From a virus: DNA of 41,507 nucleotides. Below are positions 4,924-35,497 of the stretch, piece after piece. The stretch covers positions 1-41,507 of the IMG/VR virus record IMGVR_UViG_3300025889_018428; one strand, given 5' to 3'. Positions within the stretch are counted from its first letter, which is position 1; each line of letters begins with the position of its first letter. The notes under the pieces were generated by a model. It searched no databases, was not told where the DNA came from, and was given only the letters and a program-made list of their open reading frames with translations. Both the position numbers and the translations under genes were made by a program.

Positions 4924-5755
4924 TTAAAATTCTCCCTTCAATATCTGATAAATTATCAGACCCGATTGCATCATCACAATATGTTATTAAATCCATTAAT
5001 TCGTAATTTAAGAGTATTTTATCTGGATTTTCATTTAATTCAGACATAAACTTATAATTACTGGGTATAGGCAATATCTCGTATAGATCCAACGCACTTC
5101 CATATTCTTTTATTAAAGTTTGCGCGCGCTTTGGTCCTACACCCGAGAACCCTATAATATTATCTCCCTTATCTCCTGTGAGACATTTTAGAGATATATA
5201 CTCTTCTTGAGTTACATCGTAATGTTCGTTCCAATTTTCTAGCGTAACTTCCTTCCTCGTCACATAAGAAAATCTTCCGACATTTTCTTGAATCAACAAA
5301 TCCCAGTCTCTATCGCTTGAGATTAGCCAAATTTTATTAAGGCCATATTTTTTCTTTTCCTTAACTAGGTGAGCTGCAATATCATCTGCTTCTACACCTT
5401 TATATCTAAGTATGACCCAATCCTCTGAGAGGAGTTGAAGAGTTGATTCGTATTCTTCAAAGAACTCTTCAAAGGCAATTCTTTCTTCTTCGGACTGTTC
5501 CGCAAATTTATCTTTTCTATTCTGTTTATACTCTGGGTGTAGGGCCTTTCTATAGCTGGACGAACCCCAATCTGCTGTGATAATGACACGTTTACAATCA
5601 TAAGACTTTGCTAAACTCTCAACTGTTCTTTGATAATCATATCTAAAATCTGTTCTTCCCTGATGTTTCCATCTAAAAGCCAGATTTAAAGAATCTACTA
5701 CTAGAACAGAATCATCTCTAGGTTCTAGTATTTTTTCATTAAATTTAAATGTCAC
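4913..5755 (-). CDS. 5'-3' flap exonuclease (T4 RNase H / FEN-1 type)
   Basis: A 280-residue nuclease of the PIN/FEN superfamily that removes RNA primers and 5' flaps during lagging-strand synthesis. Acidic metal-binding motifs occur in order: VVDSLNLAFRW, the arginine/lysine arch segment HPEYKQNRKDK, GVEADDIAA, ISSDRDWDLL, and the helix-hairpin-helix region TGDKGDNIIGFSGVGPKRA. The length matches stand-alone phage exonucleases. PolA in this phage lacks a 5' nuclease domain, so this protein plausibly supplies it in trans. It overlaps nrdA and the upstream methyltransferase gene by about 11 bp each, a typical operon arrangement. Confidence 0.92.
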   Translation of the reverse strand: MTFKFNEKILEPRDDSVLVVDSLNLAFRWKHQGRTDFRYDYQRTVESLAKSYDCKRVIITADWGSSSYRKALHPEYKQNRKDKFAEQSEEERIAFEEFFEEYESTLQLLSEDWVILRYKGVEADDIAAHLVKEKKKYGLNKIWLISSDRDWDLLIQENVGRFSYVTRKEVTLENWNEHYDVTQEEYISLKCLTGDKGDNIIGFSGVGPKRAQTLIKEYGSALDLYEILPIPSNYKFMSELNENPDKILLNYELMDLITYCDDAIGSDNLSDIEGRILNVL

Positions 5756-6413: not shown

Positions 6414-6849
6414 AAGTAAAACTAATTTCCTCCTTAGATAGCCATTCCTCTGCTAGAAGAATGTAACAATTTAAAAATTTAATATACAACCAATTATCAG
6501 TCCATTCTGGAACAATATCTGTTACTACATATATAGGGCTTCTATTATACTTAAAAAATAATAGAGGTTTTTGTTTTCCCCCTTCAGATTGTTCAAGTAG
6601 TTTCTTCCACCATTTTATTAAATTATTTGTTTTCTTTTGAGTAAAAATTTTATCAGAAAGAGGGCTTTCTTCATAATTTTTTACTTCAATACAAAATCTA
6701 TTTTTAACATGAGGAACGTAAAGATCCCCTTTTAAGTAGTTTAGTGCTCCACTTAGAGGGATTCTCTCGAACTGTAAGTTTGTACGCTCTCTTAATAAAT
6801 CCCTTACTAAGTACTCACCACGAGCACCTTTTGCTCTTGAATCAACCAT
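6397..6849 (-). CDS. Hjc-like Holliday junction resolvase
   Basis: A 150-residue PD-(D/E)XK nuclease. The N-terminus SRAKGARGEYLVRDLLRE carries the conserved glutamate helix, LKGDLYVP the metal-binding aspartate and FCIEVKNYEE the E-x-K catalytic pair, in the order and spacing seen in archaeal-type Hjc resolvases. Such enzymes cut four-way junctions that arise in recombination-dependent replication, and the flanking gp46/gp47 and flap-exonuclease genes support that role. The C-terminus ends in an acidic tail and overlaps the next gene by 17 bp. A different PD-(D/E)XK nuclease activity cannot be excluded from sequence alone. Confidence 0.75.
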   Translation of the reverse strand: MVDSRAKGARGEYLVRDLLRERTNLQFERIPLSGALNYLKGDLYVPHVKNRFCIEVKNYEESPLSDKIFTQKKTNNLIKWWKKLLEQSEGGKQKPLLFFKYNRSPIYVVTDIVPEWTDNWLYIKFLNCYILLAEEWLSKEEISFTYEYDE

Positions 6850-6852
6850 AAA

Positions 6853-7065
6853 TTAAAAATTATTTAGAACATCTAATTTTTCTGTATACTCCGCAATTTT
6901 TGATATTTCTTCTTCTATAGCTTGAAGCACATCAGGATGTTCTCCTATCCCTGCGGGATTGTGTAAATAGATCTCTACGTTTGCTTCGTGATACTGGATT
7001 TTTCCTCTAAAAGTTTCGCGTAAAGCATCGAGAATTTTTTCTCTTAAAATTTCTTTTTTACTCAT
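6853..7065 (-). CDS. Small conserved phage protein (GIGEHPDVLQAIE family), unknown
   Basis: A 70-residue, mostly helical protein with the central motif LHNPAGIGEHPDVLQAIEEE. I recall proteins with the same core from marine phage genomes, often in replication or recombination regions, without an assigned function. The ATG at 7065 overlaps the stop of the gp46-like gene (ATGA), so translation is coupled to it; AGGT lies a few bases upstream. Ends three bases before the resolvase start region. An accessory role to the gp46/47 complex is only a guess. Confidence 0.6.
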   Translation of the reverse strand: MSKKEILREKILDALRETFRGKIQYHEANVEIYLHNPAGIGEHPDVLQAIEEEISKIAEYTEKLDVLNNF

Positions 7066-30026: not shown

Positions 30027-30443
30027 TTATAACGGGATTTGTAGTTCTTCAAAAACTTTCTTTTTTATAAGTCTAGGAGAGTGTACTTCTGCGTGACAAT
30101 TTTGACAAAGTATGGCACATTTTTCAAGTTCATCCTTAAGTGTCTTTACAGTAGCGTGCCTTCTCTTTGAAATTTCAAAAGACTTTGTAGAAGGCTCTAT
30201 GTGATGAAATGCTATTGCTCCCAAGTTCTCATCATATCCACAAAGTTCACATTCCCAATGTCTATTTAATTCTGTTATCGCCTGAGTAAGTCTAGTATAA
30301 TATTGGTGGAACTCCTGTTTACTAGAGCAGGTCTTACAGAAAGGTTTATGTTTTTGTTTTCCATTAGGCTGAGTCCCGTTCTTCTGAAACTCAGATATTG
30401 GTTGCTCTATATTACAAACATTACAAGTTTTGCTTTCACTCAT
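30027..30443 (-). CDS. HNH endonuclease with N-terminal zinc finger
   Basis: A 138-residue nuclease with two parts: an N-terminal Cys4 module (CNVCNIEQPI and CKTCSSKQ) and a C-terminal HNH domain (CELCGYDENLGAIAFHHIEPS, then CAILCQNCHAEVH). The catalytic HH pair, the central Glu/Lys region and the CxxC zinc knuckles are intact. The start at 30443 is supported by the ATGA overlap with the Bfd-like gene; the frame is open to 30509. The stop lies at the edge of the tmRNA acceptor piece. It may be a homing-type endonuclease linked to the tmRNA locus or a nuclease acting on host DNA. Confidence 0.82.
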   Translation of the reverse strand: MSESKTCNVCNIEQPISEFQKNGTQPNGKQKHKPFCKTCSSKQEFHQYYTRLTQAITELNRHWECELCGYDENLGAIAFHHIEPSTKSFEISKRRHATVKTLKDELEKCAILCQNCHAEVHSPRLIKKKVFEELQIPL

Positions 30444-30598
30444 GTTTCTTTTCTGTCTTCTGTTAGATAAGTTATCTTCTCTACTTTTACCGACCCTTCT
30501 TCTGAGCATTTACCGCACTTAGATCCCAAAAGATGGTAATAGTAGTCATTCTCTTCTAGCATTTTCTCTGTAATTGCATTACAAATACAAACGTACAC
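30440..30598 (-). CDS. Bfd-like [2Fe-2S] ferredoxin
   Basis: A 52-residue protein beginning MYVCICNAITEKMLEE and containing SKCGKCSEEGS. The Cys-x-Cys near the N-terminus and Cys-x2-Cys about 25 residues later are the four cluster ligands of bacterioferritin-associated ferredoxins, which reduce the bacterioferritin core to release iron. The GTG start overlaps the previous TAG by one base and follows GAGGA; the stop overlaps the HNH gene (ATGA). It could mobilise host iron for the phage Fe enzymes (NrdB and the oxygenases). The fold assignment is by motif only. Confidence 0.75.
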   Translation of the reverse strand: MYVCICNAITEKMLEENDYYYHLLGSKCGKCSEEGSVKVEKITYLTEDRKET

Positions 30599-30750
30599 TA
30601 TTCTTCCTCAGAATCTAATTCTAATACTCCTTGGTCGATTAGATGATCTATAACACTTTCCATCCCTTCTCTTCTTCCTAGAACAAAAGAAGAAGAAGCC
30701 ACACCTATCATACAGAAAACAAAAATAGCTATTAACTCAGGACTAAGCAT
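30598..30750 (-). CDS. 50-residue membrane protein, first gene of the tmRNA operon
   Basis: ATG at 30750 with GGAG six bases upstream. The N-terminal MLSPELIAIFVFCMIGVASS is a membrane segment, followed by a short basic linker and an acidic helix (MESVIDHLIDQGVLELD). I recall similar TM-plus-acidic-helix proteins from marine phages, function unknown. It is the first gene after the promoter at 30796-30824. Confidence 0.6.
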   Translation of the reverse strand: MLSPELIAIFVFCMIGVASSSFVLGRREGMESVIDHLIDQGVLELDSEEE

Positions 30751-30795
30751 AAAAATCTCCGTTTAAATTTTTGATTTTAAATTTAATCATTGCAT

Positions 30796-30824
30796 ATTAT
30801 ACTTCATCCGCACCACTTTGTCAA
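30796..30824 (-). promoter_or_regulatory. Sigma70-type promoter for the Bfd/HNH/tmRNA operon
   Basis: Minus-strand TTGACA (30819-30824) and TATAAT (30796-30801), spacer 17 bp. No other promoter is visible before the tmRNA, so tmRNA is probably cut from this transcript. Confidence 0.86.
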
Positions 30825-30846
30825 GAAATTTTTTTGAGTAACACAT

Positions 30847-30880
30847 AAAAAAACCTCGGTGAAAATATATTTCACCGAGG
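30847..30880 (-). terminator. Strong intrinsic terminator
   Basis: CCTCGGTGAAA (30854-30864) and TTTCACCGAGG (30870-30880) form a perfect 11-bp stem with loop ATATA. On the minus strand it is followed by seven T (30847-30853). It ends the transcript that carries the small membrane gene at 30998-31150 and lies just upstream of the next promoter. Confidence 0.92.
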
Positions 30881-30882
30881 CT

Positions 30883-30966
30883 TTAGTAGAGCTTTTGTCC
30901 TAGGTACAAGCTCCGAGAACCCAAGCCTAGATCGTTTTTGAGAAAACGGGCAAGAAACTCGCGCAT
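30883..30966 (-). CDS. Possible 27-residue peptide before the terminator
   Basis: An ATG at 30966 opens a 27-codon frame ending at TAA (30883-30885), directly before the terminator. The peptide starts MREFLARFLKNDLGLGSRS and looks like an amphipathic basic helix. No clear ribosome binding site is seen, so this is a low-confidence gene. Confidence 0.3.
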   Translation of the reverse strand: MREFLARFLKNDLGLGSRSLYLGQKLY

Positions 30967-30997
30967 TTAAAGTCTACCGTTGACTTAAAACTACTTC

Positions 30998-31150
30998 TTA
31001 CTTCTCGTTAATGTAGTAGTTTCTACACTCTTGAACGCTTTCTGCAATGCCTTGTTCGACTTCAGCCTTGCATTTTTCGTTCAGAGCCTTGTTGCTGCTC
31101 GGTATGATTAACAGAGCTACAACGATCAATGCAATGGTTACACCATCCAT
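30998..31150 (-). CDS. 50-residue membrane protein of a stand-alone unit
   Basis: ATG at 31150 with AGGAG six bases upstream. It has an N-terminal hydrophobic segment (VTIALIVVALLIIPSS) and an acidic/polar domain with two cysteines (KCKAEVEQGIAESVQECRNYY), perhaps outside the cytoplasm and disulfide-bonded. The promoter at 31645 and terminator at 30847 make it the main gene of its own transcript with a leader of about 490 bases. Function unknown; an early host-takeover or superinfection factor would fit. Confidence 0.6.
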   Translation of the reverse strand: MDGVTIALIVVALLIIPSSNKALNEKCKAEVEQGIAESVQECRNYYINEK

Positions 31151-31527
31151 GATCTTCTCCTTTTATATAGAGTGAAACGATTACCTACCTACTTTCGTTT
31201 CGACGTGCTACTCACTAGATGGCTAAGATAGCACCCCTGGCGAGAACCCGTGGTTATGGTTATGAATAGGCTCCTCGCTGTAACTAACCCCATAACATTA
31301 TTAGTAATTTTCGTGGTTAGTTGTTTCTTTCTATTTCCTTTTAGCGTCAGGCTTTGAAAGATTTCGGACGGGTTATGTTTCTTAACGGAGTAATAACCAA
31401 CTACGGCTATGCACAATAAGCCTGCATACTGGCCTTCCTCTTTTAGCCTAAGAGGAAAAATTTGGCAGAAATTGGAGCTTCGGTAGGGCTGGTACTTTCA
31501 CCGAAATCTTTACTGCCTTATCAGCAC
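31151..31527 (-). other. Gene-poor, hairpin-rich leader region
   Basis: About 375 bases between the 30998-31150 gene and the tandem repeats without a convincing gene. One 75-codon frame (31189-31416) begins with TTG and lacks a ribosome binding site. The stretch holds several inverted repeats: AACTAACC/GGTTAGTT (31282-31289, 31315-31322), TTCCTCTT/AAGAGGAA (31435-31442, 31450-31457) and TTCGGT/ACCGAA (31479-31484, 31500-31505). It would be transcribed as a long structured leader or contain a small RNA. Confidence 0.45.
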
Positions 31528-31612
31528 CTGTATCAAGTACAAAACTGTATCAAGTACAAAACTGTATCAAGTACAAAACTGTATCAAGTACAAAACTGTA
31601 TCAAGTACAGAA
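31528..31612. repeat. Five tandem 17-bp repeats
   Basis: The unit CTGTATCAAGTACAAAA occurs five times head to tail; the fifth copy has one A-to-G change, and a four-base partial copy follows. Each unit contains the short palindrome TGTA-TCAAG-TACA. The array lies just downstream of the minus-strand promoter at 31645 and near the plus-strand promoter at 31714, so it could be an operator array, a replication iteron set or a repeat RNA. Confidence 0.95.
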
Positions 31613-31644
31613 CTGTCCCTGGCTTCTCTCAATTTCTGAATACT

Positions 31645-31673
31645 ATTATATAGAAATAACCAGAAAAAGTCAA
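31645..31673 (-). promoter_or_regulatory. Sigma70-type promoter reading into the tandem repeats
   Basis: Minus-strand TTGACT (31668-31673) and TATAAT (31645-31650), spacer 17 bp, preceded by AAAATAGTTC. Transcription starts near 31638, about 25 bases before the repeat array. Confidence 0.86.
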
Positions 31674-31713
31674 GAACTATTTTTTTGAATGTTACCCCTT
31701 GCAAAAATAATAC

Positions 31714-31742
31714 TTGACATGAACGCACTTTTATCATATAAT
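31714..31742 (+). promoter_or_regulatory. Sigma70-type promoter of the plus-strand operon, possibly leaderless
   Basis: TTGACA (31714-31719) and TATAAT (31737-31742) with a 17-bp spacer. It is divergent from the promoter at 31645-31673, with about 40 bp between their -35 boxes. The predicted +1 (31749) is the A of the ATG of the first gene. Confidence 0.86.
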
Positions 31743-31748
31743 ATACGG

Positions 31749-31925
31749 ATGAAAAATTATAGAAAAAAGCCATGGAGCTATAAAGAACGCATGCTTTTAA
31801 GGGACCACTACTATTTTGTAGGAGGAGAAGAGATGGAAAAAATTCTTCCAGGTAGAACTCATAATTCTATAATTAAACAAGTGGCATATTTAAAAGCGAG
31901 AGGATGGTGGTTTAAAAAACCGTGA
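31749..31925 (+). CDS. Small Myb/SANT-like DNA-binding protein
   Basis: A 58-residue protein with a Myb/HTH layout: KKPWSYKERMLLRDHYYFVG, then EEMEKILPGRTHNSIIKQVAYLKARGWW. The PGRT turn before the recognition helix is typical of Myb-like repeats. If transcription starts seven bases after the -10, the ATG is at the 5' end of the mRNA (leaderless). A strong internal site (GGAGGAGAAGAG before ATG at 31833) would give only the recognition half. It is placed to act as a regulator of the divergent promoters beside it. Confidence 0.65.
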   Translation: MKNYRKKPWSYKERMLLRDHYYFVGGEEMEKILPGRTHNSIIKQVAYLKARGWWFKKP

Positions 31926-32596: not shown

Positions 32597-32766
32597 TGGC
32601 AAAAATTAAGGAAGTGGTAATGTTTGTAGAGGGGTTATTCTACTCTGATTTTAGCAGGGAAGAAATAGCTAAGATGGGAAGTCGAGAGTTTAATATATCA
32701 GAAAATTATATTAAAAAAGTGTATGATGACTTCGTGTGGGAAAATAAATATAAAGTATGGACATAA
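32596..32766 (+). CDS. 56-residue protein upstream of rpsU, unknown
   Basis: ATG at 32596 overlaps the previous TAA (TAATG) and follows AAGGAGGAAT, a very strong ribosome binding site. The sequence is charged and helical with MGSREFNISENYIKKVYDDF. It overlaps the bS21 gene by 10 bp. No family recognised. Confidence 0.6.
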   Translation: MAKIKEVVMFVEGLFYSDFSREEIAKMGSREFNISENYIKKVYDDFVWENKYKVWT

Positions 32767-32942
32767 AAGTAAAAAACGGAAATGTAGAGAAAGCTCTTAG
32801 AATTTTAAAAAGAAGATCTTTGGAAAAACTTTTTGAAGTACGTGAGAGACAATACTACTTAAAGCCTTCAGAGGCAAGACAGAAGAGAAAAAAAGCAGCA
32901 AAATTAAGAGAGCTTAGGAGGGTTCGTGCTGAGAAACAATAA
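32757..32942 (+). CDS. rpsU: Ribosomal protein bS21
   Basis: A 61-residue homologue of small-subunit protein S21. It has the N-terminal strand DIKVKNGNVEKALRILKRR, the conserved EVRERQYYLKPSEARQKRKK and a basic C-terminal helix (AAKLRELRRVRAEK), matching cellular bS21 from end to end. S21 is the last protein to join the 30S subunit near the anti-Shine-Dalgarno region; phages of SAR11 and others are known to carry it. Here it may bias host ribosomes toward phage mRNA. It overlaps the 32596 gene and ends inside the dehydratase start. Confidence 0.92.
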   Translation: MDIKVKNGNVEKALRILKRRSLEKLFEVRERQYYLKPSEARQKRKKAAKLRELRRVRAEKQ

Positions 32943-33957: not shown

Positions 33958-34349
33958 TATGGGAAGGTACTAACTTTGAGTTAGTAGGTGATTTTATGGA
34001 GGCTTTTGGTCAAGAGGTTCATTTAGAACCTCACTGGCCCGATTTCTCTACTCGAGAACTTAGAGTAGACTTAATTGAGGAAGAGCTAGAGGAATTAAAA
34101 GTAGCTATTGCTAATGAAGATCCTGTGGAGGTAGCAGATGCGCTCACTGATTTACTATATGTTGTGTACGGAGCAGGCCACGCCTTTGGCCTTGATCTTG
34201 ATACTTGTTTCAATGAAGTTCATGCAAGTAATATGAGTAAACTAGGCGAAGACGGAAAGCCTGTCTATAGAGAAGATGGCAAAGTACTAAAAGGGCCTAA
34301 CTTTTTTAAACCAAATCTGAGAAGAGCCTTATGGATGGAAACACTCTAA
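33945..34349 (+). CDS. MazG/HisE-like nucleotide pyrophosphohydrolase
   Basis: A 134-residue all-alpha pyrophosphohydrolase with the metal-binding helices VDLIEEELEELK and VEVADALTDLLYVVYG. The tail KLGEDGKPVYREDGKVLKGP is typical of phosphoribosyl-ATP pyrophosphohydrolase-like phage proteins. ATG at 33945 has GGAG eight bases upstream; the frame is open from 33924. This is one of three enzymes in the window with a pyrophosphohydrolase-like fold, which would trim the nucleotide pool. The exact substrate is unknown. Confidence 0.8.
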   Translation: MANVVWEGTNFELVGDFMEAFGQEVHLEPHWPDFSTRELRVDLIEEELEELKVAIANEDPVEVADALTDLLYVVYGAGHAFGLDLDTCFNEVHASNMSKLGEDGKPVYREDGKVLKGPNFFKPNLRRALWMETL

Positions 34350-35497
34350 AAGCGTATGTAGTTGGCTATGGTTCTATAGATGCTTTAGGAAATAACCCTT
34401 ATGAAAGTTTTCAGAATTCTTTAAATAATACTGACTACTCTTCTATAATTGAACCACTTAAAGAATACCCTATTAATACGGGGTATCAAGTTGAAGACTC
34501 TAGATTATTATACCCTAAGGGATTTCGACCCAAAGGTATGTCAAGAGCACAGAAATTTGTAATGCATGCGACAAATCTTGCCTTACTACACGCAAATATT
34601 CGCCACTCTTCTAATGTGGCTGTAATAATATCTTCTACTTTATCTGAAGGCGAGATGTCTTCAAAAAATATTCCAAAATTTTTATCAAACTCTAAAGTCT
34701 CTCCGCGAGAGAATGTTAATACTATTACTGATATGTGTACATATCATGTAGCTGAGCACTGGAAATTTCAGGGAATGTCTACTTCTGTAGCCGCCGCTTG
34801 CGCTACTGGATTAGTTAGTATTGATTATGCTATGCGGATATTGCACAGATATGACTATGTAATAGTCGGAGGTGCTGACGCTGGCTGCTATGAAACAGCG
34901 ATTAAGGGATTCCATCAAATTGGTGCAATTTCAAACAACAATAGTCCATTTGATAATAACAGAACTGGTTTTGTTATGGGAGAAGGTGCTGGAGTACTAA
35001 TTCTTCAAAATGCATATAATGTAGAAAAGTATGGCAGCAAAGTACACGCAATTTTACATGAACCTGGGCACGCATCCGAAGGCTTAAGTATTACTAGCCC
35101 TGCCGAAGACGGTAGAGGGGCAATACAAGCAATGCGACAAGCTTTAAGATATGCAGAAATTGTCCCAAATACTGTTTGTGCTCATGGTACTTCAACACCT
35201 ATAGGAGATGTCATAGAGTATACAGCAATTCAAAAAGTACTACCTAATACACCTATTTGGGCTCCTAAGAGTAAAATAGGGCATACAGTTGGAGCGGCAG
35301 GAATTTTAGAAACAATACATTGTATTGAAGCAGGAAAACAAAATATAGTACCTCATATACATAACCTAAATAAGTGTGATTTTGATACTAGCAATAGTTT
35401 ATGCCGAGAAAACACTCCCTGCGAAAAAGTTTTTATGAACAATTCTTTTGGCTTTGGAGGTAAAAATATGGCTCAGGTCTTAGAGGTTATATCCTAA
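34331..35497 (+). CDS. Beta-ketoacyl-ACP synthase (FabF-like)
   Basis: A 388-residue thiolase-fold condensing enzyme. The active site is complete: Cys157 in VAAACATGLVS, His285 in CAHGTSTPIGD, Lys313 and His318 in PKSKIGHTVGAAG, and the closing motif NSFGFGGKNMAQVL. These are the residues of KAS I/II enzymes (FabB/FabF) that elongate acyl-ACP by malonyl-ACP condensation. The N-terminal region is divergent, so a specialised acyl or polyketide product is possible. ATG at 34331 overlaps the pyrophosphohydrolase gene. The gene ends the plus-strand operon and overlaps the opposing glycosyltransferase by 11 bp. A phage copy of this enzyme is unusual. Confidence 0.92.
   Translation: MDGNTLKAYVVGYGSIDALGNNPYESFQNSLNNTDYSSIIEPLKEYPINTGYQVEDSRLLYPKGFRPKGMSRAQKFVMHATNLALLHANIRHSSNVAVIISSTLSEGEMSSKNIPKFLSNSKVSPRENVNTITDMCTYHVAEHWKFQGMSTSVAAACATGLVSIDYAMRILHRYDYVIVGGADAGCYETAIKGFHQIGAISNNNSPFDNNRTGFVMGEGAGVLILQNAYNVEKYGSKVHAILHEPGHASEGLSITSPAEDGRGAIQAMRQALRYAEIVPNTVCAHGTSTPIGDVIEYTAIQKVLPNTPIWAPKSKIGHTVGAAGILETIHCIEAGKQNIVPHIHNLNKCDFDTSNSLCRENTPCEKVFMNNSFGFGGKNMAQVLEVIS

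Follow-up and report, generated by a model that had tools for sequence, protein, structure and literature searches.

A complete transcription unit with a long leader

The window, i.e. the whole stretch of 41,507 nucleotides that was analysed (IMG/VR record IMGVR_UViG_3300025889_018428), is a 41.5-kb virus record with a DNA polymerase that shares about 44% identity with the polymerases of T5-like Vibrio phages. Its minus strand carries, from 31673 to 30850, a promoter, five 17-bp repeats, a leader of about 375 nt that extends from the repeats to the ATG at 31150, a 50-aa ORF and a terminator (Table 1), and all elements of the unit that a first-pass annotation had laid out from the sequence were recovered. 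Both the putative promoter and the putative terminator match their consensus strongly and are retained among relatives. The predicted transcription start lies close to 31638, where helix P0 has its base (see below), and a promoter of the type AAAAATA(A/G)TTCTTGAC...TATAAT is kept 18-30 nt upstream of the RNA core in most relatives in which the core comes first. Since a further consensus promoter lies right after the terminator, the unit seems insulated.

The leader had been noted as out of proportion to the small gene behind it, and it indeed harbours a conserved structured RNA. It had also been read as free of genes, and no hidden conserved protein came to light: comparison with relatives yielded no conserved protein-coding ORF within the leader, and a 75-aa ORF that runs across it from a TTG start (31189-31416) has no Shine-Dalgarno sequence, no Pfam match and no consistent counterpart in the relatives. 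The folding energy of the leader corresponds to z = -1.45, MFE z-scores being uninformative by themselves; structure is claimed here because of covariation, as energy alone is not decisive.

Table 1. Features of the unit and its surroundings in the window (pair coordinates of the core were read by hand from the sequence)
Feature	Position	Strand	Remarks
Predicted sigma-70 promoter, TTGACT-17-TATAAT	31645..31673	-	11/12 consensus matches
5' RNA core, P0-P3 and pseudoknot	31466..31638	-	R1 match; covariation in 21 members
Helix P0	31638-31626 with 31477-31466	-	A31629 bulged
Helix P1	31623-31621 with 31517-31515	-	
Pseudoknot, P1/P2 internal loop to P3 loop	31619-31617 with 31488-31486	-	
Helix P2	31615-31613 with 31524-31522	-	
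Five tandem 17-bp repeats within P2, unit TTTTGTACTTGATACAG	~31528-31614	-	identical or near-identical units
Conserved joiner AGUAAAGAU	31514-31506	-	
Helix P3	31504-31501 with 31483-31480	-	
Hairpin D2a, loop with GGCUA	31435..31457	-	place matches L058/L036; both-sided stem changes
Hairpin D2b	31408..31428	-	comparison with L058 and L036
Hairpin D2c	31371..31398	-	comparison with L058 and L036
Hairpin D3, conserved ACGAAAAUUACUA..AAU.GUUAUGG	31284..31320	-	covarying stem
Hairpin D4, followed by CCAGGGG	31240..31278	-	
Hairpin D5, loop UAGCCAUCUNGUGA	31205..31234	-	
Hairpin D6, loop AAAGUAGGUAGGUAAU	31174..31201	-	
ORF for 50-aa membrane-type peptide	30998..31150	-	GGAGA Shine-Dalgarno at 31160-31156
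Conserved noncoding block after the ORF, GUCAACGGUAGACU...	30890..30985	-	87-90% identity in L003/L007
Predicted intrinsic terminator, 15-bp stem and U-run	30850..30884	-	strong consensus match
Next promoter, TTGACA	30824-30796		directly past the terminator; consensus match
Permuted two-piece tmRNA gene, tag ANDDIYSLAA	29698..30068	-	separate from the transcript

A pseudoknotted core shared by a family of viral contigs

A search with the 50-aa peptide matched seven contigs (a distant match, 41%, in L018 was discarded as lying on an unrelated contig). In the peptide-bearing relatives, with the exception of L001 and L002, which are nearly identical to the window, the upstream RNA is very unlike that of the window, and the block GAUAAGGNAGUAAAGAU...GGUGAAAGUA is what these divergent RNAs and the window have in common. 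The family was built by scanning viral contigs for this shared block, which yielded contigs without the peptide, and then for a shorter pattern, which yielded many more. The resulting core of about 100 nt is present in ~37 viral records and is composed of the helices P0, P1, P2 and P3 together with a loop pseudoknot.

The first-pass annotation had proposed a covariation analysis of relatives, and this bore out the structure. Among 21 members outside the window's own group, 16 of the 21 core pairs were changed on both sides, and the covariation score was matched by none of 500 shuffles (0/500); in the same members, 90.7% of the core cells were paired, versus 71.5% after shuffling and 28-46% after sliding. 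The pseudoknot covaries as well (GGG/CCC to GAG/CUC, AGG/CCU and CGG/CCG), and P0-P3 were predicted independently by RNAalifold. A covariance model of the core (R1), trained on these 21 members with the window's group left out, matched the window with 69.6 bits (E 3e-15) and matched its relatives without exception; the lowest-scoring member, truncated at the end of its locus, reached 50 bits and the top non-member 20 bits.

Two unpaired blocks, GAUAAGG and AGUAAAGAU, are near-invariant. Such conserved joiners within a pseudoknotted fold could in principle form the active site of a catalytic RNA, i.e. a self-cleaving or splicing ribozyme or a remnant intron, but we consider this very improbable: no ribozyme or intron model of Rfam matches, even at E 10, and there is neither an interrupted gene nor an exon-like flank, the units spanning promoter to terminator.

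Downstream hairpins and the 17-bp repeats

Downstream of the core we found at least seven hairpins in the leader, where three or more had been announced. In a comparison of the window with L058 and L036, the hairpins D2a-D6 hold their position while the stems vary, and several loops are conserved. Both sides were changed in 21 of 38 shared pairs relative to L058 and in 28 of 38 relative to L036, and the inner 2-bp step of D3 reads AC/GU, GC/GC, GU/AC or GG/CC among the relatives. When each member's own arms are combined, 233 of 233 pairs form, a figure that is partly given by construction because the arms were read by hand and selected for pairing, versus 46% when arms are swapped between members; the proposed structure of D2a-D6 therefore rests on the double changes and the swapped-arm control. 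At the sequence level, D3-D6 of the window were recovered by nhmmer in L058 (E 1.2e-18), L036 (6.5e-10), L038 (8.4e-7) and L130 (2e-4), some stems being misplaced in the MAFFT alignments of this part; for the predicted D2a-D2c the support comes from position and pairing, a sequence-level match being absent. Taken over the core and D2a-D6, compensatory changes exceed the column controls, which argues for a conserved structured RNA.

The repeats are confined to the window and two near-identical contigs, in which the unit occurs five (window), four (L009) and three times (L008); where the window has repeats, other members have an ordinary short stem-loop in P2. It had been suggested that the array is a sponge, i.e. 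that it titrates a protein or an RNA, and there are indeed five near-identical units, each of which can by eye be drawn as a small hairpin, (U/C)UGUA-CUUGA-UACAG with the loop CUUGA. In the minimum-energy fold of the array, however, the units pair with one another instead of forming hairpins of their own. Given that the repeats are absent elsewhere in the family and still vary in copy number (5/4/3), they represent one peripheral arm that has expanded recently and is still slipping, and not a conserved sponge, a role that we regard as extremely improbable.

The peptide gene is genuine and optional

The description of the ORF product as a membrane protein of 50 residues with two cysteines was accurate: the peptide has a single N-terminal hydrophobic segment and cysteines at positions 27 and 42 (C27, C42). 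Purifying selection (dN/dS 0.08-0.29 versus L003/L004/L006/L007) identifies the ORF as a real gene at the level of sequence comparison. A 51-aa homologue is encoded in L058/L076, and no match was found in Pfam, PHROGs or cultured phages.

One might expect the leader to control this gene in cis, as a riboswitch, an attenuator or a stability element that governs translation of the membrane peptide. The arrangement would fit, as a small ORF follows the core or D6 in the window, L001/L009, L003-L007, L058/L076 and L077, and as the core of L003-L007 stops a few bases before the Shine-Dalgarno sequence. Yet more than 12 members lack such an ORF and stop at a terminator of their own, and the type of downstream gene is not constant, as would be expected of a riboswitch or other cis-acting leader, since many members simply end in a terminator. 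Moreover, between the window and L003 the peptide is 96% identical whereas the 5' RNA is almost wholly different, and L036 has an RNA of the window type without the ORF. A cis-acting leader thus appears unlikely. Complete units, with promoter, core, hairpins and terminator in the absence of the ORF, occur in L021, L024, L035, L036, L053, L132 and others; because of these many ORF-less members the constant product is the RNA, not the peptide, and the peptide gene is optional in the family.

Architecture and distribution

In most members the core comes first, 18-30 nt past the -10 box. In L003-L007, L050 and L121 it is found in the direction of the RNA's 3' end, 210-430 nt away from the promoter and preceded by a D3-like hairpin, and in L050/L121 it immediately precedes the terminator. 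The core is therefore a module that shifts between the ends of the RNA. As the 3' part also varies between subfamilies (L043/L089/L119/L122; L056/L129), no single whole-RNA fold fits all members.

The usual position of the core close to the promoter, together with the sequestration of the 5' end by helix P0, would also suit a put- or EAR-like element for processive antitermination or RNA polymerase binding, or one that protects the 5' end, with the remaining RNA as filler. This is, in our view, quite improbable, as the transcripts soon stop at strong terminators that are followed by fresh consensus promoters, the core can lie far from the promoter or directly ahead of the terminator, as in the members just mentioned, and D3-D6 are likewise conserved and covarying.

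Exactly one copy of the core was found in each of 26 records searched, and in the eight core records that contain a DNA polymerase, this protein is 62-87% identical to that of the window. Single copy and polymerase identity together are most simply explained by vertical retention within one phage lineage. The carriers form a group of phages that are uncultured and mostly aquatic. BLASTN of the RNAs of the window, L021, L020 and L004 and of the tmRNA against 50,697 phage records gave no true relative, and R1 gave no match above 12 bits in Vibrio phage Thalassa. A scan of genome contigs gave a lone chance match, inside a Rhodopirellula sequence that lacks the core fold.

Translation-related neighbours

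The tmRNA of the window scores with the Rfam models for permuted (tmRNA_permuted) and betaproteobacterial tmRNA. Of 35 family records that were checked, many of their contigs being short fragments, 18 have a permuted tmRNA, often no more than a few kilobases away from the core. Among marine and aquatic phages, two-piece tmRNAs are known to be over-represented (PMC9004378). A tRNA-Trp gene is found near the RNA in L035, L036 and L132, and on the L033 contig. In the window, a gene for ribosomal protein bS21 (32757-32942, plus strand; Pfam PF01165, above cut-off) lies near the RNA.

Comparison with known RNAs

Few large ornate RNAs are known to us (GOLLD, ROOL and OLE), and their biochemical jobs are, to our knowledge, unsettled. 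No Rfam 15 family, GOLLD and ROOL included, matched the RNA at E <= 10 in positions 30600-31900 of the window, L021, L036 and L107, or at the gathering score in the other members; matches overall comprised tmRNA, tRNA and chance matches. Likenesses to a group I intron, an HDV-like ribozyme and a glutamine riboswitch that had been seen by eye were dropped, as no model matched. No description of the RNA was found in the accessible main-text literature on ornate or structured phage RNAs.

GOLLD and ROOL are nanocage-forming phage RNAs with no known job, encoded near tRNA islands; GOLLD is expressed during phage lysis (PMC12286853). Like the family RNA, GOLLD is a large multi-hairpin RNA of phages and prophages with its own transcription unit near tRNA genes, and it combines one universally conserved with one variable region (PMC12286853); the proximity to phage tRNA genes holds here in the form of tRNA-Trp and tmRNA. 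The family core is, however, usually 5' rather than 3' and differs in sequence, and the family RNA measures about 250-600 nt, less than the >800 nt of GOLLD. ROOL, too, is ornate, pseudoknotted, often near tRNA islands and without a known protein partner (PMC12286853); the family RNA is again shorter. GOLLD and ROOL are the closest in kind, but their covariance models do not match, and the likeness does not extend to membership. OLE resembles the family RNA in being large, ornate and strongly conserved, and bS21 reportedly belongs to the OLE RNA complex (PMC12054373), to which the nearby bS21 gene forms a parallel. OLE is, on the other hand, cellular (mostly Bacillota) and not phage-borne, and its Rfam model has no match here. 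The OM43 phage Melnitz is likewise an aquatic phage with a permuted two-piece tmRNA and a structured RNA nearby, but that RNA is a predicted glutamine riboswitch (PMC9004378), a match to which is absent from the RNAs described here.

A proposed gene for a large ornate phage RNA

We propose, with a probability of roughly 70%, that the unit encodes a large ornate noncoding RNA in a lineage of T5-like phages, which often bring a tmRNA of their own. The best reading is that the ~480-nt 5' part of the transcript is a structured noncoding RNA and the main product, and that it represents a new class among the large ornate RNAs of phages, not homologous to GOLLD and ROOL. The earlier suggestion of a small RNA within the leader stands in so far as a functional RNA appears to be present; it is the whole 5' part and not a small fragment. 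Comparison of relatives supports the predicted core fold and hairpins, one copy per record and the lack of an obligatory ORF.

Host RNA polymerase would initiate at the strong sigma-70 promoter, and the first ~170 nt would fold into the core, with helix P0 tying up the 5' end and the P3 loop engaged in the pseudoknot; the seven covarying hairpins with their conserved loops would follow, and the strong terminator would close the transcript. The 50-aa peptide would be a passenger, optional in the family and co-transcribed with the RNA in some of its members. Because there is no constant downstream gene, the RNA may act in trans, with a structural or scaffolding role during infection as proposed for GOLLD and ROOL, an analogy of function that we infer. 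As tmRNA, tRNA-Trp and bS21 are encoded nearby, its target could be the translation apparatus. More tentatively still, the ~100-nt pseudoknotted core may be a portable module that opens or closes the molecule in an RNA-only or RNA-protein particle, acting on the host translation machinery beside the phage tmRNA.

To the few large ornate RNAs these results add a phage class that has a compact, pseudoknotted core, is represented by dozens of natural variants, comes in minimal versions as short as about 250-330 nt and lies near tmRNA, so that the role of ornate phage RNAs becomes testable on smaller molecules. More generally, where a phage genome shows a long leader in front of a tiny gene, the leader can itself be an RNA gene and the peptide optional.

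Other elements near the unit

Several further elements were observed in passing. A small protein encoded at 30440-30598 (minus strand; MYVCICNAITEK...) resembles a BFD-like [2Fe-2S] domain below the Pfam cut-off and is retained in several relatives. Directly ahead of the start of the MYxCICNAIT (BFD-like) gene lies a compact conserved element, GGGGGUG..UAGG..CUUAAAGC..GCGCCCCC.CCUA (L003 ~5300-5420, L004 ~5210-5310 and the left end of L008), which gave no Rfam match at the gathering score; it is apparently an H-type pseudoknot and possibly a separate cis-regulatory RNA. An HNH/His-Me-finger endonuclease-like ORF, below the Pfam cut-off, adjoins the tmRNA gene of the window with a slight overlap (30027-30509, minus strand). 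The 8.5-kb contig L008 carries two different permuted tmRNAs (579-877 and 6532-6902), with the tags ANDEVYDLAIAA and ANDDIYSLAA, and is either chimeric or derived from a phage with two tmRNAs. In L099 a tRNA-Met gene directly follows the core (~12059-11970, minus strand). Finally, the phage encodes at 34331-35497 (plus strand of the window) a protein that, judged by eye from its sequence, is beta-ketoacyl-synthase-like.
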